Shown: positions 3,195-17,896 of the stretch, one piece after another
Layout: each line of letters starts with the position of its first letter
Position numbering within the stretch: the first letter of the stretch is position 1
From: a virus
IMG/VR virus record: IMGVR_UViG_3300024255_001824
Coordinates: 1 to 42,406 of that record
Reading direction: 5' to 3' (one strand)
Length of the DNA stretch: 42,406 nt
Made by a program: the position numbers and the translations under genes
Notes under the pieces: model-generated
The model's database searches: none
The model's input: the letters and a program-made list of their open reading frames with translations, nothing else
What the model was told of the DNA's origin: nothing

Positions 3195-3656
3195 TTATTC
3201 CTCCTTGAGTAGTTTCTCCATTAGCTTGCCATAGTTGCCTTGGCCAAATGGCAAACCCTCACTATTGATTTGTACGTTGTTTTGAGTTCTGATGACTCCA
3301 TTTTCGGCTTTTACCATTTCGGCTTGAGCCTTAATTTCATCCATTCTCATACGATGCGCCATCTGAAGTAAGTCTGCCAAGTCTTTACTTGAGTATACTC
3401 CCGTTTCTTGCGCCTCCTCTAACTTTGATTTGATGATTTCGTCAAGGGCTGTAGCAATGTTATTTTTGTTACGAAACCCCATGTCTAAGTATACAGTATC
3501 AATATACTTTTTTACTTCTCGCTTATTTAGTATATCAACAACTTTATTTTCCGGAACGGCCAAATACTCGCACACCGCACGAATATTTCCAAATTGCAAA
3601 TAGCAATTTGCCACTTCCAACCCCTCTGGAGAGATTGTTGTTAATTCCTTACTCAT
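3195..3656 (-). CDS. Terminase small subunit-like HTH protein
   Basis: A 153-residue protein starting MSKELTTISPEGLEVANCYL. The N-terminal 60 residues look like a helix-turn-helix (CEYLAVPENKVVDILNKREVKKYID), followed by helical segments and a Gly/Lys-rich tail. This resembles small terminase or DNA-packaging adaptor proteins that choose DNA for packaging. The large terminase is not in the window, so the context is only partly supportive. The start codon lies only 5 nt downstream of the -10 box at 3662-3667. Confidence 0.55.
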   Translation of the reverse strand: MSKELTTISPEGLEVANCYLQFGNIRAVCEYLAVPENKVVDILNKREVKKYIDTVYLDMGFRNKNNIATALDEIIKSKLEEAQETGVYSSKDLADLLQMAHRMRMDEIKAQAEMVKAENGVIRTQNNVQINSEGLPFGQGNYGKLMEKLLKEE

Positions 3657-3785: not shown

Positions 3786-4382
3786 TTAAGCTCCCCACTG
3801 ATCTGCCATTGCTGCGGCAATTCCAAAGAACGTGACAGATCGTTCTTTGCCTTGTCCTCCTCCGAATTTATCATACCCAGTATCTCCTTGGTTTCCCCAT
3901 CGCGGCTTTCCATCTACAATTCGGGGTGGAACATTTTCTGTTGGTGTTAAGGGTGCCAAGCCCCTCAGCCACAGGCCCGTTTTCTTTGACGCATCTTCTG
4001 AGTAGTTATAGGGCTGGACGTATTGGGGCTTTGGCATAAAGTCTAGTCGAGTATTTATACACCCGACCGGGTTTTCAATGCACATTTTATTTACTGGTGC
4101 TCTCCACATTTGTGTGATGAATTCCAGGGCTTCTTCTGTTTTTTCTGCTCTTCCCGGGATCTTGTTGTTCCAATGTAATCCAGAAGAAGCCAAATAGGTG
4201 CAAGGAGGGTGCAAAATAGCAAGATCCCATGAACGGTCATATAAGACATCTAGTACATCTCCTTGAATATGAGGCCCTCGAGCCTCCGTCGGCAGTAAGT
4301 CACACGAGATTGCGTCGTGCCCCATCGCGATAAAACAGTCGCGTACTGTTCCACTAAACTCACAACCTACTAATACTTTCAA
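3786..4382 (-). CDS. Phage DNA cytosine methyltransferase-like protein
   Basis: A 198-residue protein. It begins MKVLVGCEFSGTVRDCF, an AdoMet-binding motif I. It then has ILHPPCTYLA, matching the catalytic PC motif of C5-methyltransferases, and CIENPVG, matching the ENV motif region. A late segment TGLWLRGLAPLTPT and FFGIAAAMADQWG complete the small phage family often annotated as DNA cytosine methyltransferase. It is shorter than typical bacterial Dcm enzymes and shows no obvious separate target-recognition domain. Modifying phage DNA against host restriction is the usual proposal. No partner endonuclease is nearby. Confidence 0.7.
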   Translation of the reverse strand: MKVLVGCEFSGTVRDCFIAMGHDAISCDLLPTEARGPHIQGDVLDVLYDRSWDLAILHPPCTYLASSGLHWNNKIPGRAEKTEEALEFITQMWRAPVNKMCIENPVGCINTRLDFMPKPQYVQPYNYSEDASKKTGLWLRGLAPLTPTENVPPRIVDGKPRWGNQGDTGYDKFGGGQGKERSVTFFGIAAAMADQWGA

Positions 4383-4594: not shown

Positions 4595-4613
4595 GATGTT
4601 TTTTTAGTTAGGG

Positions 4614-4641
4614 GGTAATAAAAAAGGGGCCGTAGCCCCTT
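4614..4641 (-). terminator. Rho-independent terminator after the TonB receptor gene
   Basis: On the minus strand a 7-bp stem AAGGGGC/GCCCCTT with a TACG tetraloop (arms 4624-4630 and 4635-4641) is followed by six T. It sits just after the receptor stop and insulates the receptor from the leftward promoter at 4565. Confidence 0.85.
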
Positions 4642-4658
4642 GTTTCTGCCGTAGCCCC

Positions 4659-6851
4659 CTAAAAGTTGTATGAAACTGTCATACCAAAAGTTCTCGGAGC
4701 GTTGAAGTTGCCGTAGGTTCCTAACACATCATCTTTCTGCGGGTCGCGTCGATAGATATATGCTTCGTTTGTCAGGTTACGACTCCATAGCTGAATATCA
4801 AGATACCCATTGCCTAATTGAATATCTCCTACTTTGATACTACTATTTGCGATAGTATGGGCATCGTTCTTTGTATCGTACTGACTGAATGCATATGCAG
4901 CATCAGTATATGTGACGTCAATGTGAGCACTTAAAGAAAACTTATCAAAGTATGTAGTATAGTCCAATCCTATGTTTACCACGTTCTCTGGTGTGAACAC
5001 AATAAATACTTCTTGCAACTCACCGTTAAAGGGGTTAACTGTGTCAGGCACCTCTGTGCTAGTATATGTATACGCACTTGTCAATGTCAACTCTTCTGTT
5101 AGAGCAATCTCTGCATCTAGCTCGATTCCATAAATCTCTGTAGTGCCGGGAGCATTGAGCGTTTCTAGTGTATTGCGCGTTGTCTGAGTGATAGGATCGA
5201 AGTTGACTTGTGAGAAGTCAATCTGTGACCCAGTACGGTCCATCATGAAAAGAGAACTATTCAATACTAAGCGTTCACTTCTCCATTTAGCACCCAGTTC
5301 ATAACTCTTTACAACTTCGGGGCCAAAACCTCGAAAGGTAAGAGAACGACTACTTGCACCGCCAGATCGGTAACCTGTAGCATACTTCGCATAAACATTC
5401 AAGTCTTCGGTTGCATCCCACGCTACAATCGCAACTGGGTCGAAACGAGACTCTTCAATGTCTAAGTCCCATTCTGCATCCAAGCCTTTCACCTTGTAGA
5501 GTTGACCAACCTTGGTATTTTGAGTATATCGACCGCCTAATGTAAAGTGTAAGAAGTTATCATAAGTGTAGGTAGTTTGTCCAAATACTCCCATACTTTC
5601 TGATTCAGCACGAGACCCTCTATCAATTCTCCAATTCTCATATGCCCAAGTATCGGGGTCGTTGATAGTATATCCGGTGAGGTCAGAGTTCCAACGATTA
5701 GTAGAGGGCGTTGCTGCCTCTTCCATTGCGTTCTCTTTGAAATAGTAGGCACCTGCAACATATTGCAATGTATCAGTATCTCCGATAATTTGAAACTCTT
5801 GACTGACTTGGTCCTGCTTCATTTGTGACAAGCTGTATCGACTAAATACTTGGTCAGGCTTAGGGGCGGGTACACGGTGAGCGCCTCCACTGTTGTCCCA
5901 CTGCTCTGAGTCAAGGTCACGATATCCAGTAATAGAACGTACATCGAACCACTCTCCAGACCATGTTAGTTGGAAGGTATGTCCACTCGTCTCGTTGCCA
6001 CTTGCTTGCTGAGGTACACCAATATCAGCAACTTTCATACGGTCGTTGCCTTCTACCACAATTAAGGAAGGTAAAGGCGTAAGTCCTTTATTATTAGGGT
6101 CAAAGTTGAGTAGCTGACTGTAAAAAGGAGTGTTTAAGTCAGTGCCCTGATCATACGAGTAATATGCAAGAAGATTATCTTTTTCCCACTCTGCACTGAA
6201 TCGTATTCCATCGCGATCAAAGAAGTTCCATCCTTCTTGCCCCTCTAGTGGGTTGTCAATAGTGGCATCCTGATACTGACTAATGTAGTCTATCTTTGTT
6301 GCTACTCCATAGAAAGAGGGAAGGTTTAAATGGGCTTCTCTACTAAAGGAATTATAGTTGCCTGCTCCTCCTTTCACTATACCTTCTAACTGACCTGTGG
6401 GGCGACGAGTGACGATGCTCAGGGCACCACCAGAAGTGTTTCTACCGAAAAGTGTCCCCTGTGGACCACGTAGCACCTCTATTCGCTCCACATCGAGAAG
6501 AGCGGCGTTTAATCCATGCTGGCGTCCTAGATAAACTCCGTCTACATATACTCCCACTCCACTTTCTCGGGCGGGTTGGTTTGCATCAAGAGGAACAATT
6601 CCTCGAATACCGATAGTAAGGGCGGTTTGTCTTGCTTCGAAAGTTGCAACGTTTAAGCCGGGCACGGAACCGTCTCCAAAGTCGAGAAGGCTTTGCACAT
6701 GGCGATCTTCAAGGTTTTGAGAAGATTGCACATTCATTGAAATTGGAGTCTCTTGAAGACTCGTCTCTCTTTTGGTTGCGGTTACAACAACTTCTTCCAG
6801 AGAAAAAGCCGGTGCTGCAAATAAAATAATGAGTAAAAGTAGGGGGTGCAT
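4659..6851 (-). CDS. TonB-dependent outer-membrane receptor (full length)
   Basis: A 730-residue protein with all parts of a working receptor. A signal peptide (MHPLLLLIILFAAPAFS) is followed by EEVVVTATKR, a typical start of the plug and possible TonB-box region. The plug (about residues 30-150) carries GVGVYVDGVYLGR and VERIEVLRGPQGTLFGRN. A long beta barrel ends in the outer-membrane Phe (TVSYNF). No frameshift or internal stop is visible, and the length is normal for the family. Such receptors import iron-siderophores, haem, cobalamin or glycans using TonB energy; the substrate cannot be read here. It has its own ribosome-binding site (AAAAGGAG), promoter and terminator, so it is a single-gene unit. 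I know of few phages carrying a complete receptor of this class. Confidence 0.93.
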   Translation of the reverse strand: MHPLLLLIILFAAPAFSLEEVVVTATKRETSLQETPISMNVQSSQNLEDRHVQSLLDFGDGSVPGLNVATFEARQTALTIGIRGIVPLDANQPARESGVGVYVDGVYLGRQHGLNAALLDVERIEVLRGPQGTLFGRNTSGGALSIVTRRPTGQLEGIVKGGAGNYNSFSREAHLNLPSFYGVATKIDYISQYQDATIDNPLEGQEGWNFFDRDGIRFSAEWEKDNLLAYYSYDQGTDLNTPFYSQLLNFDPNNKGLTPLPSLIVVEGNDRMKVADIGVPQQASGNETSGHTFQLTWSGEWFDVRSITGYRDLDSEQWDNSGGAHRVPAPKPDQVFSRYSLSQMKQDQVSQEFQIIGDTDTLQYVAGAYYFKENAMEEAATPSTNRWNSDLTGYTINDPDTWAYENWRIDRGSRAESESMGVFGQTTYTYDNFLHFTLGGRYTQNTKVGQLYKVKGLDAEWDLDIEESRFDPVAIVAWDATEDLNVYAKYATGYRSGGASSRSLTFRGFGPEVVKSYELGAKWRSERLVLNSSLFMMDRTGSQIDFSQVNFDPITQTTRNTLETLNAPGTTEIYGIELDAEIALTEELTLTSAYTYTSTEVPDTVNPFNGELQEVFIVFTPENVVNIGLDYTTYFDKFSLSAHIDVTYTDAAYAFSQYDTKNDAHTIANSSIKVGDIQLGNGYLDIQLWSRNLTNEAYIYRRDPQKDDVLGTYGNFNAPRTFGMTVSYNF

Positions 6852-6898
6852 TTTTGAAAACTCCTTTTCGCTTTGGGTAAATTTTTACCACAGAGCAT

Positions 6899-6907
6899 AT
6901 TATAACA
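6899..6907 (-). promoter_or_regulatory. Extended -10 promoter of the receptor gene
   Basis: On the minus strand TGTTATAAT, an extended -10 element, lies about 50 bp before the receptor ATG. No good -35 is seen at the correct distance. This differs from the TTGAC-N17-TATAAT promoters elsewhere in the window, so the receptor may need an activator or be expressed weakly. Confidence 0.6.
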
Positions 6908-6990
6908 TAGAATTGTTGCAATTTTATGAAAACACCAAAAAAAGTTTTTTCAATTTTTCCCAAGTGGTACGTGTGGAGTGGTCTGGGCGC

Positions 6991-7013
6991 GCTAAATGAG
7001 AATGAGTCTCATT
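6991..7013. repeat. Left copy of 23-bp direct repeat / Fur-box-like palindrome
   Basis: Begins GCTAAATGAGAA and ends TCTCATT. It matches the copy at 9521-9543 at 20 of 23 positions. Inside is an inverted repeat AATGAGA/TCTCATT with a 5-nt centre, close to the 7-1-7 Fur pattern (TGATAATNATTATCA, 11 of 14 by eye). It lies about 90 bp upstream of the receptor -10 and at the left border of the GC-richer cassette. Confidence 0.65.
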
Positions 7014-7095
7014 ACCGCCCCTCCCGGCCCGGAGGGTAGCACAGACCCGGCCTGGAGGCAAGCGATTTTTTTGTGATATATTACCATAAAAAAGG

Positions 7096-7126
7096 TTGTA
7101 CTTTTCGGCGCAAGCTGGGTTATAAT
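7096..7126 (+). promoter_or_regulatory. Promoter of the inserted cassette
   Basis: TTGTAC (7096-7101), a 19-nt spacer and TATAAT (7121-7126). The spacer is long and the -35 imperfect, so it looks weaker than the other promoters. The transcript would start near 7133 and cover the co-directional genes from 7179 to 9529. Confidence 0.5.
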
Positions 7127-7178
7127 GCTTGCATCGGCTGGGGGATTGGCTCTCGGCTAAAATCAAAGGTAGCACTTT

Positions 7179-7472
7179 ATGAGCACATACACTGACAAAA
7201 TGGTTGCGGCGATTCGCGCGGCGGCTCCTCTTAACCTCGCAAAAGCGAAGCAACTCGCCAGCGATTTCGGGAGCGTATCACATCGCTCCGTCATTAGCAA
7301 GGCGCAAAGCCTCGGCGTTGAATACGTCAAAGCCGCACCTGCGGCAAAGCGAGAGCGCGGCCCTACAAAGGCCGACATCCTCGCGGAGCTACGGCGCTCG
7401 CTGGCATTGCCTGAGCGTGAAGGTGATTTCACCAAAGGCGAGCTGTCCGTCATTCTGAGCAACATCGGGTGA
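7179..7472 (+). CDS. Small HTH protein (cassette member of phage HTH family)
   Basis: A 97-residue protein. The N-terminal half (YTDKMVAAIRAAA, then AKQLASDFGSVSHRSVISKAQSLGVEYVK) has the layout of the HTH proteins at 10813, 13288, 22770 and 25646: a helix, an A/T-start helix, then SxxSVxxKxxxLGVxY. The C-terminal half (TKADILAELRRSLAL) parallels the C-terminal helix of those proteins. DNA binding is likely. This one uses GC-rich codons, unlike its relatives, which fits arrival from another phage together with the cassette. Confidence 0.7.
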   Translation: MSTYTDKMVAAIRAAAPLNLAKAKQLASDFGSVSHRSVISKAQSLGVEYVKAAPAAKRERGPTKADILAELRRSLALPEREGDFTKGELSVILSNIG

Positions 7473-7666
7473 TAGCGGTTATAGGCTGGTGCGGAGCGGG
7501 GGCTATGGCCCTCGCCCCTTTCGCCATCGACACCGACGCGGGCAAGCTGGCCGCGATTGCTGGGCTGGTATTGTTAACGGTTCAAGCGCTGGACATTCGG
7601 GCGTGGAATCTGGTACTATTGAATCTGGCTGGAATTATAGGATATAGCTATGCACTACTTTTTTGA
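7469..7666 (+). CDS. Small hydrophobic membrane protein (65 aa)
   Basis: Starts with GTG overlapping the upstream stop (GTGA). The sequence is mostly hydrophobic with about three membrane segments (VIGWCGAGAMALAPFA, LAAIAGLVLLTVQAL, WNLVLLNLAGIIGYSYALLF). It resembles small PnuC-like or uncharacterised phage membrane proteins; no function is assigned. Its end overlaps the next gene by 17 nt. Confidence 0.6.
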   Translation: MIAVIGWCGAGAMALAPFAIDTDAGKLAAIAGLVLLTVQALDIRAWNLVLLNLAGIIGYSYALLF

Positions 7667-8123
7667 TCTCGACCATACGGTCATCGACTCATCACACCGC
7701 CAGATCACGCGACCTGACGGCTCGCTTGATCTTGCGGCGTGGGTTCACAACAATACCCGCGCTAACATCATGGCAGATACTCTGCTACCGCTCGCCGCAC
7801 AATGGCGAAAGGTAGATCGCAAGGGCGCGACCATCGTGATCTGCACTGCTCGCGTCATGGGTGAACATGATTACGAATATCTCCGCGCAAACGGCTTGCG
7901 TTGGGACGCCTGCCTCTCGCGTCGGCTGGGCGATAGCTCACCGGATGCGGAGCTAAAAGAGCGAATGATTCGCAAATACGCGCAGGCTCGGCCTATGTCG
8001 TGGGCGCGCTTCTGCGCAACAACCGTCTTTTTTGATGACAACAAAAACGTGCTCGAAATGCTTGCGCGCATTGGCATAAAAGCCTATAATTCAATCTCAC
8101 TCAACGAAAGGTTATCAGCATGA
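7650..8123 (+). CDS. HAD-superfamily phosphatase
   Basis: A 157-residue protein. Motif I is FFDLDHTVID (nucleophile Asp6, acid Asp8), motif II is the Thr in VICTARV, and motif IV is FFDDNKNVLE near the C-terminus. The size and the CTAR motif recall the 3'-phosphatase half of phage polynucleotide kinase and other small phage HAD enzymes. The substrate is unknown; a nucleotide or nucleic-acid 3'-phosphate is plausible. It overlaps the exonuclease gene start by 4 nt, suggesting an operon. Confidence 0.75.
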   Translation: MHYFFDLDHTVIDSSHRQITRPDGSLDLAAWVHNNTRANIMADTLLPLAAQWRKVDRKGATIVICTARVMGEHDYEYLRANGLRWDACLSRRLGDSSPDAELKERMIRKYAQARPMSWARFCATTVFFDDNKNVLEMLARIGIKAYNSISLNERLSA

Positions 8124-8833
8124 TGAGCAAAAACGTAATCGCGGTACTCGACACGGAAACAGTTGGCCTAGAGGGTCACGTTTATGATATCGCGTGGTGT
8201 ATCACTGACAAGCGCGGCAACATCGCTTGTGAGCGTAACTGGCTGGTGCAGGAAAACTTTACCGACCCCACCAAAATGATGGGCGCATTCTATGCGGGCA
8301 AAACCTTTACCCACTACGCTCCAATGTTGCAGGCGGGCACGATCACAATGCGCCCGTGGGCTGAAATTCTCGGCGCGTTGCGAGCCGATTTTCTCTGCTA
8401 CGGTGTGCAGACCGTTTCGGCTTACAATGCCGGTTTCGATCTGCGCGTGATCGACCAGACCCACGGCGATTTGACCGGCGCGGATTTTGACCTTTTTGAC
8501 GGCTTGCAGATTCTCGACATCTGGCAATTTGCCTGCGAGACTAAACTGCAACAAAAAAGCTACGCGCGCATCGCTCGCGCTCTCGGCTGGGTTTCTCCTG
8601 CTGGCAATATCAAGACCGGCGCGGAGTTTGCTTACCGTTTCGTTTGCGGCGATCACTCGTTTATCGAGGATCACACTGCGCTTTCTGACGCGCAAATCGA
8701 GGTTGCGATTTTGGCGGAGTGTTTCCGACAGAAAAAATCTGTCCCGTATGGCGTGATAAACGCGCAACCGTGGCGGCTGGTAAATCCGACCGCTGGCGAG
8801 GATGCCAACGTGCACGGGAGTAAGGTAGCATGA
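8120..8833 (+). CDS. DnaQ-like 3'-5' exonuclease (DEDDh)
   Basis: A 237-residue protein with the family's motifs in order: AVLDTETVGLEG (ExoI, Asp and Glu), SAYNAGFDLRV (ExoII), and HTALSDAQIEV (ExoIII with His of the DEDDh type). Such enzymes remove nucleotides from 3' ends of DNA or RNA. The main polymerase at 29201 already has its own 3'-5' exonuclease domain, so this looks like an extra enzyme that came with the cassette. It overlaps both neighbours by 4 nt. Confidence 0.85.
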   Translation: MMSKNVIAVLDTETVGLEGHVYDIAWCITDKRGNIACERNWLVQENFTDPTKMMGAFYAGKTFTHYAPMLQAGTITMRPWAEILGALRADFLCYGVQTVSAYNAGFDLRVIDQTHGDLTGADFDLFDGLQILDIWQFACETKLQQKSYARIARALGWVSPAGNIKTGAEFAYRFVCGDHSFIEDHTALSDAQIEVAILAECFRQKKSVPYGVINAQPWRLVNPTAGEDANVHGSKVA

Positions 8834-8922
8834 GATATTTAGCACTGGCCTATCTGGTCTATTCTGTCACCACGGATCTAGCGATCTGGGGAGGCGCGCT
8901 CTACTACTTTTTCGGAGGATGA
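8830..8922 (+). CDS. Tiny membrane protein (30 aa)
   Basis: Begins MRYLALAYLVYSVTTDL and ends ALYYFFGG, one hydrophobic span. ATGA overlap with the exonuclease stop, and the GGAGG before its own stop serves the next gene, so it fits the operon tightly. Function unknown. Confidence 0.5.
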   Translation: MRYLALAYLVYSVTTDLAIWGGALYYFFGG

Positions 8923-8926
8923 ACCC

Positions 8927-9529
8927 ATGAAAAAATTGCAAGCAAAACTAAACCGACTCGCTGAGAATTTAAACTCTCCGGTTGCGGTAATTTTAGAAGG
9001 GCGCGACACTGCCGGAAAATCCTCTACCATTCGAGAATTAACACACTACCTACCACCCGACCTCTACAGCGTTTGCCTATCTCACAAGCCCAGCAAACGC
9101 GCAATGGCGGCATGGCTGGGATACTGGGAAACCAAACTACCGAAGCAAAACCAAATTGTGTTTTTTGATCGCTCTTGGTATTCCCGCGCAATGGTGCAAC
9201 ATTTAAACGAATGGTGTAGCCCGAAGCAATACGAAATTTTTATGCGCGATCACAAAAACTGGGAAGCTACTCAGCCGGTGCGCTTGATTAAATTCTGGCT
9301 TTCCATTTCAGAAGACGAACAAAAACGCCGCATTGATTACCGCAAAAATTCTCCGCTCACCTACTGGAAATTTTCGGAGAATGACGAAAATGCGCTTTCA
9401 CATTATGATCGAATGTCAATATTAAAAGAGCGCGTGATAGACTCCGAATGGCACACTATAGATTTTGAAAACAAAAAACGCGGAATCAAAAACCTGCTTT
9501 CTGTTTTATGCGACCAGCTAGCTAAATGA
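8927..9529 (+). CDS. Polyphosphate kinase 2 (PPK2) family protein
   Basis: A 200-residue P-loop kinase. Walker A is EGRDTAGKSST (residues 24-34), Walker B is FFDRSWYSRAM (79-89), and the lid/substrate region is KRRIDYRKNSPLTYWKFS (133-150) preceded by KFWLSISEDEQ. These are the signature blocks of PPK2, which moves phosphate between polyphosphate and nucleotides (usually making ATP or GTP from ADP or GDP). It is shorter than common bacterial PPK2 proteins (roughly 230-300 residues), lacking N- and C-terminal extensions, but all catalytic blocks are present. It is last in the cassette operon; its stop codon lies inside the right-hand repeat. Base composition is close to that of the cassette, though less GC-rich. 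Confidence 0.85.
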   Translation: MKKLQAKLNRLAENLNSPVAVILEGRDTAGKSSTIRELTHYLPPDLYSVCLSHKPSKRAMAAWLGYWETKLPKQNQIVFFDRSWYSRAMVQHLNEWCSPKQYEIFMRDHKNWEATQPVRLIKFWLSISEDEQKRRIDYRKNSPLTYWKFSENDENALSHYDRMSILKERVIDSEWHTIDFENKKRGIKNLLSVLCDQLAK

Positions 9530-9543
9530 GAACCATTCTCATT
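9521..9543. repeat. Right copy of 23-bp direct repeat / Fur-box-like palindrome
   Basis: Shares GCTAAATGAGAA and TCTCATT with the copy at 6991-7013 (20 of 23). Here the inverted repeat is AAATGAGAA/TTCTCATTT with a 3-nt centre. It covers the stop codon of the PPK2 gene and marks the right border of the GC-richer cassette. Confidence 0.65.
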
Positions 9544-9553
9544 TGGCCCAGGA

Positions 9554-9569
9554 TGTTCCACGTGGAACA
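9554..9569. promoter_or_regulatory. Perfect parS-type palindrome (ParB/Spo0J site)
   Basis: TGTTCCACGTGGAACA, a perfect 16-bp palindrome. It equals the parS form found near chromosome origins of proteobacteria such as Pseudomonas and is one transition per arm from the Bacillus form. No parA or parB gene is visible, so the site would be read by host ParB. It lies between the right cassette border and the promoter cluster. Confidence 0.8.
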
Positions 9570-9672: not shown

Positions 9673-9701
9673 AGTATAAGTGCGATTGCGATAATTGTCA
9701 A
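9673..9701 (-). promoter_or_regulatory. Leftward promoter 1 of control region
   Basis: Minus strand TTGACA (9696-9701), 17-nt spacer, TATACT (9673-9678). It points toward the parS site and the 3' end of the plus-strand cassette. Confidence 0.75.
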
Positions 9702-9775
9702 GTCTTTTTTTCACGATTGGACAAAATTTTTTTAAAATGTGTAGTCTTCGTGGCAGACCCCGTGCCCACCCTGGT

Positions 9776-9804
9776 AGTATACCGGCAAAGCCTGGCAATG
9801 TCAA
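9776..9804 (-). promoter_or_regulatory. Leftward promoter 2 of control region
   Basis: Minus strand TTGACA (9799-9804), 17-nt spacer, TATACT (9776-9781). Second of three leftward promoters in series. Confidence 0.75.
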
Positions 9805-9851
9805 GGATTATTTGCGGCAAGTCCCGGGATAATTTTTAAAAGCGCGCGCCG

Positions 9852-9881
9852 ATTATACAGTAGTACGCCGACGATTGTCAA
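9852..9881 (-). promoter_or_regulatory. Leftward promoter 3 of control region
   Basis: Minus strand TTGACA (9876-9881), 18-nt spacer, TATAAT (9852-9857). It is bracketed by the 11-bp inverted repeat at 9810-9820 and 9897-9907, a possible operator pair. Confidence 0.75.
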
Positions 9882-9914
9882 GTACTTTTTGCACGATTGC
9901 CGCAAATAAATCGA

Positions 9915-9943
9915 TTGACTAGTCTTCGCGGGGACGGTATAAT
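9915..9943 (+). promoter_or_regulatory. Rightward promoter 1 of control region
   Basis: TTGACT (9915-9920), 17-nt spacer, TATAAT (9938-9943). The expected start near 9950 lies inside the inverted repeat CGCGGGGA/TCCCCGCG (9927-9934 and 9971-9978), which could act as an operator or leader hairpin. Confidence 0.75.
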
Positions 9944-10084
9944 TAGAGCAAATTGTAGAAACTTGGGGCATCCCCGCGATAATTTTAGTAAATTTTAGAC
10001 AATTTGAGTAAATAATTCTTGACACGTTTAGGTCGTGTGCGGCCCCCCGGAATAAAATTATGTTGGGGGTATGGCAAAAACTGT

Positions 10085-10113
10085 TTGACATTGATAACCG
10101 AAGCGAGTATAAT
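10085..10113 (+). promoter_or_regulatory. Rightward promoter 2 of control region
   Basis: TTGACA (10085-10090), 17-nt spacer, TATAAT (10108-10113). It fixes the start of the next gene at 10139, because longer frames begin upstream of the transcript start. Confidence 0.8.
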
Positions 10114-15277: not shown

Positions 15278-15430
15278 TTGGGTATATCAGTTGGTGAATT
15301 TGCCATTTTTATGTTCTGCATGATTGGATGCGGCGTACAATGTTGGCACCTAGGAAAAAGTACGGGTGTGGAAGCAACTGTACAGTACATGATTGATACA
15401 GGGGTTCTCGAAGTAGAAGAAGATTCGTAG
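15278..15430 (+). CDS. Small membrane protein with TTG start (50 aa)
   Basis: AAAGGAGAG lies 4 nt before a TTG start. The product reads GISVGEFAIFMFCMIGCGVQ after the initiator and ends TGVLEVEEDS. A membrane span is followed by GKSTGVEATVQYMIDTG and an acidic end. I have seen this layout (span, G-x-x-x-G, VxYLIexGvLEvdE) in many marine phages; function unknown. Confidence 0.65.
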   Translation: MGISVGEFAIFMFCMIGCGVQCWHLGKSTGVEATVQYMIDTGVLEVEEDS

Positions 15431-15447
15431 AAGTAACAAACTGACGG

Positions 15448-15481
15448 TTGGACTCGGGTGCAACTCCCGACAGCTCCACCA
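15448..15481 (+). other. tmRNA-type 3' end (T arm, acceptor strand, CCA) without a 5' half
   Basis: The 34 bases match the 3' end of enterobacterial tmRNA (ssrA) except for four positions. Two of the four are a swapped base pair in the T stem (G-C becomes T-A), which keeps the stem TCGGG/CCCGA. The end CAGCTCCACCA is intact. No partner GGAGCTG that would close an acceptor stem, and no tag reading frame, was found upstream. It lies between two small genes, just before the ribosome-binding site at 15484. It could be an attachment site for insertion into a host ssrA gene, half of a split tmRNA, or a tRNA-like decoration of the mRNA. Confidence 0.7.
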
Positions 15482-15495
15482 TAAGGAGTTTTATA

Positions 15496-15666
15496 ATGCG
15501 TATACCAATGAAAGGTGGTGATGAGTTTGACGGACTTGATCGCAGAAGCAAGCGTTTTCTTAGATGGAGATCTGGAGAGCGAAAAGCACTCAAACGTAAG
15601 TACAATAAACGACGCAGAAAGACTTTTTATGACGGGGCTGATACAGACTCGACAGGCGTACAGTAG
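15496..15666 (+). CDS. Small basic protein (56 aa)
   Basis: Begins MRIPMKGGDEFDGLDRRSKR and includes RWRSGERKALKRKYNKRRRK. AAGGAG lies 8 nt before the ATG. Longer frames would begin inside the tmRNA-like element and are rejected. It overlaps the next gene for 150 nt in another frame. I recall GERKAIKRxYNKR-type proteins in marine phages, without function. Confidence 0.6.
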   Translation: MRIPMKGGDEFDGLDRRSKRFLRWRSGERKALKRKYNKRRRKTFYDGADTDSTGVQ

Positions 15667-15751
15667 ACTTATGGAGAATCCGTGCGGAAGCTACGTTAAC
15701 GCAACAAACTTAATAAATGCCAATGATGACGTTTATACACTTGCAGCCTAA
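15515..15751 (+). CDS. Hypothetical protein overlapping the basic gene (78 aa)
   Basis: Begins MVMSLTDLIAEASVFLDGDL (or MSLTD two codons on) and ends NDDVYTLAA. Most of its length overlaps the gene at 15496 in another frame. The composition looks protein-like and the last 85 nt lie beyond the overlap, so both frames may be used. Confidence 0.5.
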   Translation: MVMSLTDLIAEASVFLDGDLESEKHSNVSTINDAERLFMTGLIQTRQAYSRLMENPCGSYVNATNLINANDDVYTLAA

Positions 15752-15814
15752 TTAGGTGTGCGGGGTCCGAGGAGCCTGGCAACAGAAATCCTCATGTTAA
15801 CCAAAGGAGGTTAT

Positions 15815-16222
15815 ATGCGAAAGATTATAGCAGGGTTGGCACTTCTCGGCCTCTCGGCCGGAATCAGTGCAGAAACTGTAATTAATTATGACGATGGATC
15901 GACGTATACACTCACGGACGGGCAAGAAATTTACATCAGCACTCCAAACAGTGCGTTGTTTAAGCGACAATTGATGAAGAACAAGGATACCTTTTTTAGG
16001 GTTCAAAAGCCTTGGACTTCAAGAGACTACGTTCCACAACCGCAAGATCCTTTTGCTGTAGGTAGTCACGGTTGGTGCCAAGTATACGTTCCTTGGAGCG
16101 AGGGCTATACATTTAATATGCAGGCTTTCCAACGTTTCTGTGATACTGATAATGATGGAAAATACGGATGTGGCGACGAGTTGTTCGATGCATCTGACGA
16201 AGGAGGAGTTTGCGCTCCTTAA
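15815..16222 (+). CDS. Secreted protein with EF-hand-like calcium loop
   Basis: AAAGGAGG lies just before this ATG, so the longer frame from 15758 is rejected. The 135-residue product has a signal peptide (MRKIIAGLALLGLSAGISA). The mature part begins ETVINYDDGSTYTLTDGQEIYIS and has four cysteines. Near the end is DTDNDGKYGCGDE, matching the DxDxDGxxxxxDE calcium-binding loop of EF-hand/dockerin type. The INYDDGSTYTLxxGExIYIS start recurs in marine phages. Export to periplasm or beyond is likely; the role is unknown. Confidence 0.7.
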   Translation: MRKIIAGLALLGLSAGISAETVINYDDGSTYTLTDGQEIYISTPNSALFKRQLMKNKDTFFRVQKPWTSRDYVPQPQDPFAVGSHGWCQVYVPWSEGYTFNMQAFQRFCDTDNDGKYGCGDELFDASDEGGVCAP

Positions 16223-16301: not shown

Positions 16302-16727
16302 ATGACAAAGCAAAATTTAATAAATATGAACGACGTTCACAAGTTCTTTTTGGGACTTGATCTTCACCCTGATTTCTTTTCTAATTCACCTATGACTGGC
16401 TATCCTCGCTACAATGTTGTGCGAGTAGGTAGTAGTGACTATCGTGTAGAGGTCGCAGTCCCGGGCTGGGATAAAGAAGATATAGAAATTACTTTGCATA
16501 AAAATGAGTTGAAAATTGAAGGAACTCAGAAGCAAGTAGCCGAGCAGGACGAGACCTATCTTTACAAAGGACTAAGCGGTAAAACTTTTTCACGGGTATT
16601 CAAGGTTGGAAACAACATTGAGCTGGATACAGCGTATATGAAGAATGGACTTCTTTGTATCGATCTTGTAGAAAATGTACCTGAAGAAGACAAGCCTAAA
16701 AGGATAGAAATCGTAAATGCAGTATGA
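16302..16727 (+). CDS. Small heat-shock protein (Hsp20/IbpA type)
   Basis: A 141-residue protein with an alpha-crystallin domain. YPRYNVVRVGSSDYRVEVAVPGW is followed by DIEITLHKNELKIEG, ETYLYKGLSGKTFSRVFKVG, MKNGLLCIDLVENVPEEDKP and IEI. These are the conserved blocks of bacterial IbpA and of the Hsp20 proteins of cyanophages. It holds unfolding proteins and may aid folding of virion proteins or of the exported proteins encoded nearby. The next tiny gene starts inside its 3' end. Confidence 0.9.
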   Translation: MTKQNLINMNDVHKFFLGLDLHPDFFSNSPMTGYPRYNVVRVGSSDYRVEVAVPGWDKEDIEITLHKNELKIEGTQKQVAEQDETYLYKGLSGKTFSRVFKVGNNIELDTAYMKNGLLCIDLVENVPEEDKPKRIEIVNAV

Positions 16728-17425: not shown

Positions 17426-17516
17426 TGGTTGTGAGACTGTAAAAATAGAAAGAGTAAATTGTAACCTTTCTGAGAACTGGCCTCAATGTAATGTAATTGC
17501 CTCAAAGGAGGACTAA
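17373..17516 (+). CDS. Small lipoprotein (outer-spanin-like candidate)
   Basis: From a GTG start the 47-residue product begins (M)TYFTKRLNVAVFVLLISGCE, with lipobox ISGC and cleavage before Cys. The mature part has two more cysteines (VNCNLSENWPQCN). It overlaps the previous gene by 53 nt in another frame, as Rz/Rz1 pairs do, and precedes the lysozyme by one gene. No clear inner spanin is visible, so the role is tentative. Confidence 0.55.
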   Translation: MTYFTKRLNVAVFVLLISGCETVKIERVNCNLSENWPQCNVIASKED

Positions 17517-17896
17517 TGTATTCAGACAAGGTACTAGATCATTATGAAAATCCCAGGAATGTCGGAAAACTTGACAAAAATGATGAGGCTGTCGGAACAG
17601 GCCTCACAGGTGCTCCAGCGTGTGGAGACGTCATGCAACTTCAAATCCGAGTATCGACCGACGGAATTATTGAAGATGCTAAATTCAAAACTTACGGATG
17701 CGGCAGTGCTATTGCTTCTTCATCACTACTCACAGAATGGGTTAGAGGAAAGTCCCTTAACGAAGCGGGAAAGATCAGCAATGTCCAAATTGCTAAAGAG
17801 CTATCACTCCCGCCTGTAAAGATACACTGTAGCGTGTTGGCCGAAGACGCGATCAAAGCCGCAATCACGGATTATAGGAGCAAGCATGAATCGTGA
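17516..17896 (+). CDS. iscU: IscU-type iron-sulfur cluster scaffold
   Basis: A 126-residue protein, the normal length of IscU. The three cluster ligands are in place: Cys36 (APACGDV, with the nearby Asp38), Cys62 (TYGCGSAIASSS) and Cys105 (KIHCSVLAEDAI). LPPVK at 98-102 is the HscA chaperone recognition motif, so it should still dock with the host Isc system. IscU builds 2Fe-2S and 4Fe-4S clusters from IscS sulfur and iron. No iscS or hscA is in the window. ATG overlaps the lipoprotein stop by one base and its 3' end overlaps the lysozyme start, so it is embedded in the lysis operon. Confidence 0.92.
   Translation: MYSDKVLDHYENPRNVGKLDKNDEAVGTGLTGAPACGDVMQLQIRVSTDGIIEDAKFKTYGCGSAIASSSLLTEWVRGKSLNEAGKISNVQIAKELSLPPVKIHCSVLAEDAIKAAITDYRSKHES

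Follow-up and report, generated by a model that had tools for sequence, protein, structure and literature searches.

The window, which here means the whole stretch of DNA that was analysed, is a 42,406-bp virus record of IMG/VR and encodes a complete TonB-dependent receptor (TBDR) on its minus strand, read from 6851 to 4659. The gene, its signals, and the slot in which it lies comprise the following features (other loci are referred to by L numbers):

4659..6851, minus: coding sequence of the TBDR, an uninterrupted 730-aa ORF
6801..6851, minus: putative signal peptide, residues 1-17, by inspection
6771..6797, minus: TonB box region EEVVVTATK, read from the sequence and kept across viral relatives
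6423..6758, minus: Plug domain PF07715, Pfam profile match
4776..6080, minus: beta-barrel domain PF00593, residues 258-692, Pfam profile match
6861..6868, minus: ribosome-binding site AAAAGGAG, read from the sequence
6899..6904, minus: -10 element TATAAT with an extended TG, exactly 10 nt past the Pho-box-like repeat
6915..6932, minus: Pho-box-like double repeat TTTTCAT-AAAA-TTGCAAC (position weight matrix, PWM; p=0.047 when scored by itself), with near-identical copies in L168, L174, L123, and L414
4624..4641, minus: terminator-like hairpin (rho-independent type) of the TBDR unit, followed by TTTTATT
4612..6960, minus: approximate inserted cassette, by comparison with the empty sites in L136, L143, L155, and L159
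4565..4594, minus: sigma-70-like promoter at the right border of the slot, belonging to the next genes (ORF74, methyltransferase)
3786..4382, minus: phrog_757 DNA methyltransferase, right flank
3195..3656, minus: T5-like terminase small subunit (TerS), context
7179..7472, plus: 97-aa ORF conserved among relatives, left flank of the slot
6995..7013, no strand: palindrome AATGAGA-N5-TCTCATT (Fur-box-like) at the slot border, also in relatives lacking the TBDR

A preliminary description of this DNA had reported an unbroken 730-residue frame with a signal peptide, plug motifs, a barrel, and a C-terminal phenylalanine, equipped with its own promoter, ribosome-binding site, and terminator; all of this holds, the promoter having a poor -35 element. 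The N-terminus reads MHPLLLLIILFAAPAFS|LEEVVVTATKRE, where the putative signal peptide precedes the bar and the TonB box follows it; given the TonB-box-like EEVVVTA motif, the receptor may be driven by TonB. Both domains lie above their Pfam cut-offs, with 63.7 bits for the Plug (cut-off 23.9, E 2.6e-17) and 105.6 bits for TonB_dep_Rec_b-barrel (cut-off 27, E 7.3e-30), and the protein ends in SYNF, i.e., on an aromatic residue. An AlphaFold model (pLDDT 66, pTM 0.69), in which the plug is modelled badly, has a TBDR fold when compared with solved structures by Foldseek, the best matches being FyuA (E 8e-25) and FhuA (2.5e-23); another model, built on a poor alignment (pLDDT 34), was set aside. 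Siderophore receptors are the nearest solved structures by both sequence and fold, but the best NCBIfam match, the siderophore receptor family TIGR01783, scores 134.9 bits, under its curated cut-off of 223.5. The PHROGs family phrog_5687 (‘unknown function’) matches the C-terminal barrel in 4/4 viral TBDRs scanned (1.9e-33 to 8.9e-21), and TonB-dependent receptor is therefore probably its proper label.

The window represents a fragment of a T5-like phage, kin of the Demerecviridae, as judged from its DNA polymerase (43% identical to T5 relatives), its TerS (42%), and its split NAD-dependent ligase, DnaB-like helicase, SbcC/D-like, and flap-nuclease-like genes, which are arranged in the T5-like D-gene order; the virion genes lie largely beyond the 42-kb record. 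Together with the failure to find an integrase among the ORFs examined (small ORFs were covered in part), this is consistent with the lytic-type phage first proposed. The region of T5 between TerS, which we infer to be ORF142, and the terminal repeat contains pb5 and llp, and the TBDR of the window lies in a comparable region. Further genes of this phage include a PPK2-family polyphosphate kinase (8927-9529, plus; PF03976, 5e-39), another phosphorus-linked gene that is retained by many relatives, and a gene for a small heat-shock protein of the Hsp20 family (16302-16727, plus). A tmRNA of permuted type (15375-15842, plus; RF04321 112.6 bits, alpha_tmRNA 85.1 bits), with the predicted tag ANDDVYTLAA, resembles the permuted/alphaproteobacterial type. 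The gene for an IscU/NifU_N iron-sulphur scaffold (17516-17896, plus) shares as much as 80% identity with its bacterial counterparts; it was considered as a host marker and dropped, as such identity is reached in many Pseudomonadota and points only to an ISC-bearing host.

Several repeats accompany these genes. The alignment with L002 revealed, at 2138-2562, a stretch of about 213 bp that is directly repeated with 95% identity. A second AATGAGA-N5-TCTCATT palindrome is located at 9525-9543, and the two palindromes flank a GC-rich block of plus-strand genes (7000-9540) that might, as a guess, be the terminal repeat. The palindromes are possibly Fur sites or marks of the terminal-repeat ends; the first is kept in many relatives, in some of them (L139-L141) in the perfect form ATGATAATCATTCTCAT, and another match sits within a tail-fibre-like gene (L152). 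Ten base pairs past the second palindrome, at 9554-9569, a parS-like 16-mer in its perfect universal form, TGTTCCACGTGGAACA, is found, which also occurs in the T5-like relatives L136, L137, L140, L159, L174, L175, and L198. parS is the ParB site for chromosome partition, a host-type element in a virulent phage. Beyond it, at 9673-10113, both strands have clustered sigma-70 promoters that are near perfect (TTGACA-17/18-TATAAT twice, 12/12), with tandem and inverted repeats; this is probably the early promoter region.

The TBDR is present in L002, a second assembly from a different IMG dataset that matches the window at 99.96% identity along 16,851 bp and spans both TBDR junctions, which makes a chimeric assembly unlikely. 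By tblastn, it was found in none of the 80 IMG/VR loci whose TerS is at least 80% identical, many of which retain both flanks of the slot. Clean empty sites occur in L136, L143, L155, and L159; the surplus of the window over them, about 2.3 kb, comprises promoter, TBDR, and terminator. The gene can thus be regarded as a moron (auxiliary gene) with its own promoter and terminator, present or absent among close relatives at a precise site. The search of related phage contigs that had been advised at the outset found the gene in L002 and in the more distant T5-like L004-L006 but in none of these 80 loci.

A scan with a plug fragment identified about 20 further viral contigs with receptors of this subfamily, 47-75% identical (mostly 47-59%). 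The preliminary description had called a whole phage-borne TBDR rare; the receptor is indeed complete, but it is less solitary than had been assumed. Most of these contigs belong to T4-like or large phages, as the TBDR neighbours include the gp44 clamp loader, gp32, an RNA ligase/tail-fibre attachment protein, a baseplate tail-tube cap, a minor coat protein, and ribonucleotide reductase. L003 is T4-like by its UvsW, UvsY, gp46/47-like, and late sigma factor genes and encodes a TBDR 74-75% identical to that of the window, and its close kin L306 and L307 (flank 93-94% identical) lack the 2.4-kb TBDR stretch and so represent a T4-like empty site. L004-L006 represent a more distant T5-like phage (TerS 47%) with a TBDR 73% identical, and L004 shares the left slot border of the window. 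Near other viral TBDRs, a tandem pair of DUF1552 (HXXSHH) genes lies immediately upstream of the receptor gene in a 159-kb contig (L288:6749-9372), and a tryptophan halogenase gene (phrog_2928; L292:2499-3755) lies a few kb away.

The protein search and tree suggested in the preliminary description place the nearest kin of the receptor in other phages. In the maximum-likelihood tree, the window, L003, L004, L286-L292, and L302 form a viral clade of 11 (support 100/100), L294-L300 form a second one (100/100), and L293 stands separate. The TBDRs of L003 (T4-like) and L004 (T5-like) pair as sisters, with that of the window outside the pair, and the gene has therefore crossed between phage types. 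Viral copies with measurable dS show dN/dS values of 0.04-0.14, i.e., purifying selection, and the codon usage of the TBDR is like that of the phage. Full-length homologues with Plug and barrel occur in Sphingomonas, Novosphingobium, and other Pseudomonadota; in the genomes sampled the closest are about 56% identical, and those on Sphingomonas/Novosphingobium plasmids 49%. The bacterial genes are chromosomal or plasmid-borne, whereas the viral copies fall in separate clades inside phage cassettes. The neighbourhoods of the bacterial homologues are not conserved and gave no hint of a substrate, and no phytase or PhoD gene adjoins the bacterial receptors.

In the TBDR promoter, the Pho-box-like double repeat occupies the place of the -35 element. 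Tandem 11-bp repeats are common to the upstream regions of viral TBDRs. They were scored with a PWM built on what we take to be the E. coli PhoB half-sites. Across 16 viral TBDR upstream regions, the mean best score was 8.54, compared with 0.28 (sd 0.88) for dinucleotide shuffles, of which 0/300 reached the viral mean. Individually, 12/16 had p<0.05, no significant box being found with the PWM upstream of the TBDRs of L289, L293, L296, and L300; likewise, 12/16 scored at least 7, as against 1.7% of 235 control upstream regions from these contigs (Mann-Whitney p=3.6e-7). In the window, L004, L168, and L395, the repeat precedes TATAAT by exactly 10 nt. As a set, these regions thus resemble predicted PhoB targets (tandem CTGTCAT-type half-sites that recur every 11 bp, some 10 nt ahead of the -10 element), the copy in the window being a weak one (p=0.047). 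The viral test was not blind because the motif had first been spotted by eye in those very sequences; the bacterial set and the other occupants of the slot, examined after the motif was noticed, agree with the pattern. Among bacterial homologues of the subfamily, 14/34 have p<=0.05, including 9/9 of one gammaproteobacterial clade with boxes of the type CGGTCAT-TCAT-CTGTCAT, as against 0/26 TBDRs outside the subfamily; a clear box is lacking in most of the bacterial homologues that come nearest (50-56% identical).

Nearly the same promoter is found in the same slot, with different cargo, in the T5-like loci L168, L174, L175, L176, and L414; in L168 its Pho-box score is 11.8, stronger than in the window. 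The cargo of these five is a 181-aa protein with a signal peptide, by appearance a putative outer-membrane barrel, to which L168 and L176 add a 306-aa membrane protein. PHO4 matches were obtained for 10/15 members of the 306-aa family, the best at E 1.3e-5, which is a remote similarity below the curated cut-off; no PF01384 (PHO4/PiT) match at E<=0.001 was found in the L168 or L395 records, nor a relative of the PHO4-like protein in the PDB. In L395, the operon of the family member is preceded by a textbook CTGTCAC-AAAA-CTGTCAT box, 10 nt ahead of TATAAT. The exact promoter core occurs in seven IMG/VR contigs, each time within this slot (7/7), where it precedes a TBDR of the window type, the 181-aa protein with or without the transporter, or an unrelated TBDR. 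The latter, in L123 (149-2956, minus), is about 920 aa long with a Plug of 60 bits, over the cut-off. Its N-terminal 130 residues hold a DGHHRYDA motif; a ParB-like reading of this region, made by eye, was dropped as PF02195 gave no match.

What the receptor imports, if anything, has to be weighed against this background. An uptake of iron, in which the TBDR would import a siderophore or haem iron chelate and might be controlled by Fur through the palindrome at 6995-7013, is suggested by the TIGR01783 match, by FyuA and FhuA as nearest structures, by the position of the palindrome about 142 bp upstream of the gene (retained in L004), and by the IscU-like gene of the same phage. We nevertheless consider it unlikely: the TIGR01783 cut-off is not reached, neither L003 nor the T4-like copies have the palindrome upstream, and the promoter has Pho-type repeats in a slot that elsewhere houses a PHO4-like gene. 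Fur control, striking at first for its two palindromes, was dropped as the main account because the one at 6995-7013 marks the edge of the slot in many relatives whether the TBDR is there or not. The preliminary description had also proposed that the receptor could feed the cell with iron or another scarce nutrient; of its options, feeding the cell is the best supported, but the Pho-box-like promoters and their cargo, including the remote PHO4-like transporter, favour phosphorus over iron. Import of some other nutrient (a carbohydrate or cofactor), with the Pho-like repeats being coincidental or bound by a different regulator, appears improbable to us. TBDR substrates are unreadable from sequence, and carbohydrate uptake has been proposed for a SusC-type TBDR of a marine megaphage (PMC9723777); on the other side, the enrichment of the boxes, the 10-nt spacing, the boxes of a bacterial clade in the subfamily, and the PHO4-like neighbour converge.

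Superinfection control would have the phage TBDR compete for TonB, substitute for the entry receptor of the host, or serve as a decoy. Llp/Cor superinfection exclusion relies on small proteins that inactivate FhuA, and T5 llp as well as Cor of phi80 and N15 are phage envelope genes tied to TBDR biology. The lytic-conversion lipoprotein gene llp lies between pb5 and the terminal repeat of T5, comparable to the TBDR region of the window between TerS and the early genes, and, to judge by structure titles, complexes of the TBDR FhuA with Llp and with pb5 have been solved. The window, however, encodes a 730-aa receptor with Plug and barrel rather than a small FhuA-binding protein; its Plug and TonB box are under strong purifying selection, unlike in a mere decoy, the subfamily also occurs in T4-like phages, a PHO4-like transporter is among the slot-mates, and control of the phosphate type would be unexpected in an exclusion system. 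The analysis yielded nothing in favour of exclusion, which T5 biology makes plausible but which we hold to be a doubtful explanation, somewhat below that of iron. Finally, a transient piece of host DNA or an assembly artefact is very improbable. TBDR genes are common in bacteria, and the gene is missing from the close relatives of the phage, but the L002 assembly runs through the junctions, codon usage is phage-like, the 11-member viral clade is fully supported, and the dN/dS values of the viral copies indicate constraint. The earlier suggestion of host DNA fixed in this lineage is wrong in detail, given the close relatives without the gene, its phage-like codon usage, and its nearest kin in other phages; the combination named as decisive against it, relatives lacking the gene and a bacterial contig with the same 2.2 kb and identical flanks, was found in its first half only, as no bacterial copy above about 56% was seen in the sampled Pseudomonadota genomes.

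The reading that we prefer, with a probability of roughly 0.58, is a moron slot for phosphorus-scavenging genes that is switched by the PhoB of the host, with the TBDR as outer-membrane importer. When the infected cell is phosphate-starved, PhoB~P would bind the Pho-box-like repeats that replace the -35 element and activate the phage promoter. The TBDR would then be secreted and inserted into the outer membrane, where TonB-ExbBD of the host would drive the import of a phosphorus-containing compound, which may in turn support phage DNA synthesis. In T5-like relatives, putative alternative uptake genes occupy the same slot behind the same promoter.

Phage-encoded TBDRs have been reported in few, single cases in the open-access literature. 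In the passages concerned, the marine megaphage Mar_Mega_1 carries one of SusC type (PMC9723777), and a TBDR annotated in the pelagiphage Polarivirus skadi was interpreted by those who described it as pointing to the entry receptor (PMC10504331); these phages thus resemble the window in bearing a TBDR, whereas Pho control or a swappable slot is absent from those passages. A Foldseek search returned a viral SusC with a TM of about 0.5 at 8% identity. For cyanophage pstS and other phage genes, a drive by host PhoBR under P starvation has been proposed or shown, and Pho boxes predicted in silico in phages have been judged unreliable (PMC10976474); those genes function in cyanobacterial hosts with another Pho consensus, whereas the window has an outer-membrane TBDR with enterobacterial-type repeats. 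In bacteria, TonB receptors that PhoB controls have been proposed to serve alternative phosphate donors in Caulobacter (PMC11208175), and low-phosphate TBDTs (PusCD/TBDTs) are described in Flavobacterium (PMC8115612); they are likened here by function, as proposed importers of phosphorus compounds under Pho control. The open-access literature gave no precedent for phage TBDRs with a Pho-type promoter, for such a slot of swappable cargo, or for a TBDR clade common to T4-like and T5-like phages, and the candidate tandem Pho-box-like repeats upstream of 12/16 viral TBDRs are new here.

The swappable slot and its apparent phosphate-starvation switch suggest that a virus feeds its infected host with scarce phosphorus compounds. 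We would give about even odds to the wider proposal that virulent T5-like phages keep a PhoB-switched slot in which at least two unrelated TBDRs, a barrel-like protein, and a PHO4-like transporter are exchanged, that the phosphorus TBDR subfamily was recruited at least twice and circulates among T4-like and T5-like phages, and that outer-membrane import in starved hosts is thereby remodelled. As TBDRs are entry points for phages and bacteriocins, their expression may also alter the sensitivity of the cell to other phages. If true, a full outer-membrane active transporter under PhoB-type control, common to T4-like and T5-like phages, would mean that the viral control of host nutrition known from cyanophage genes such as pstS reaches the outer membrane as well.
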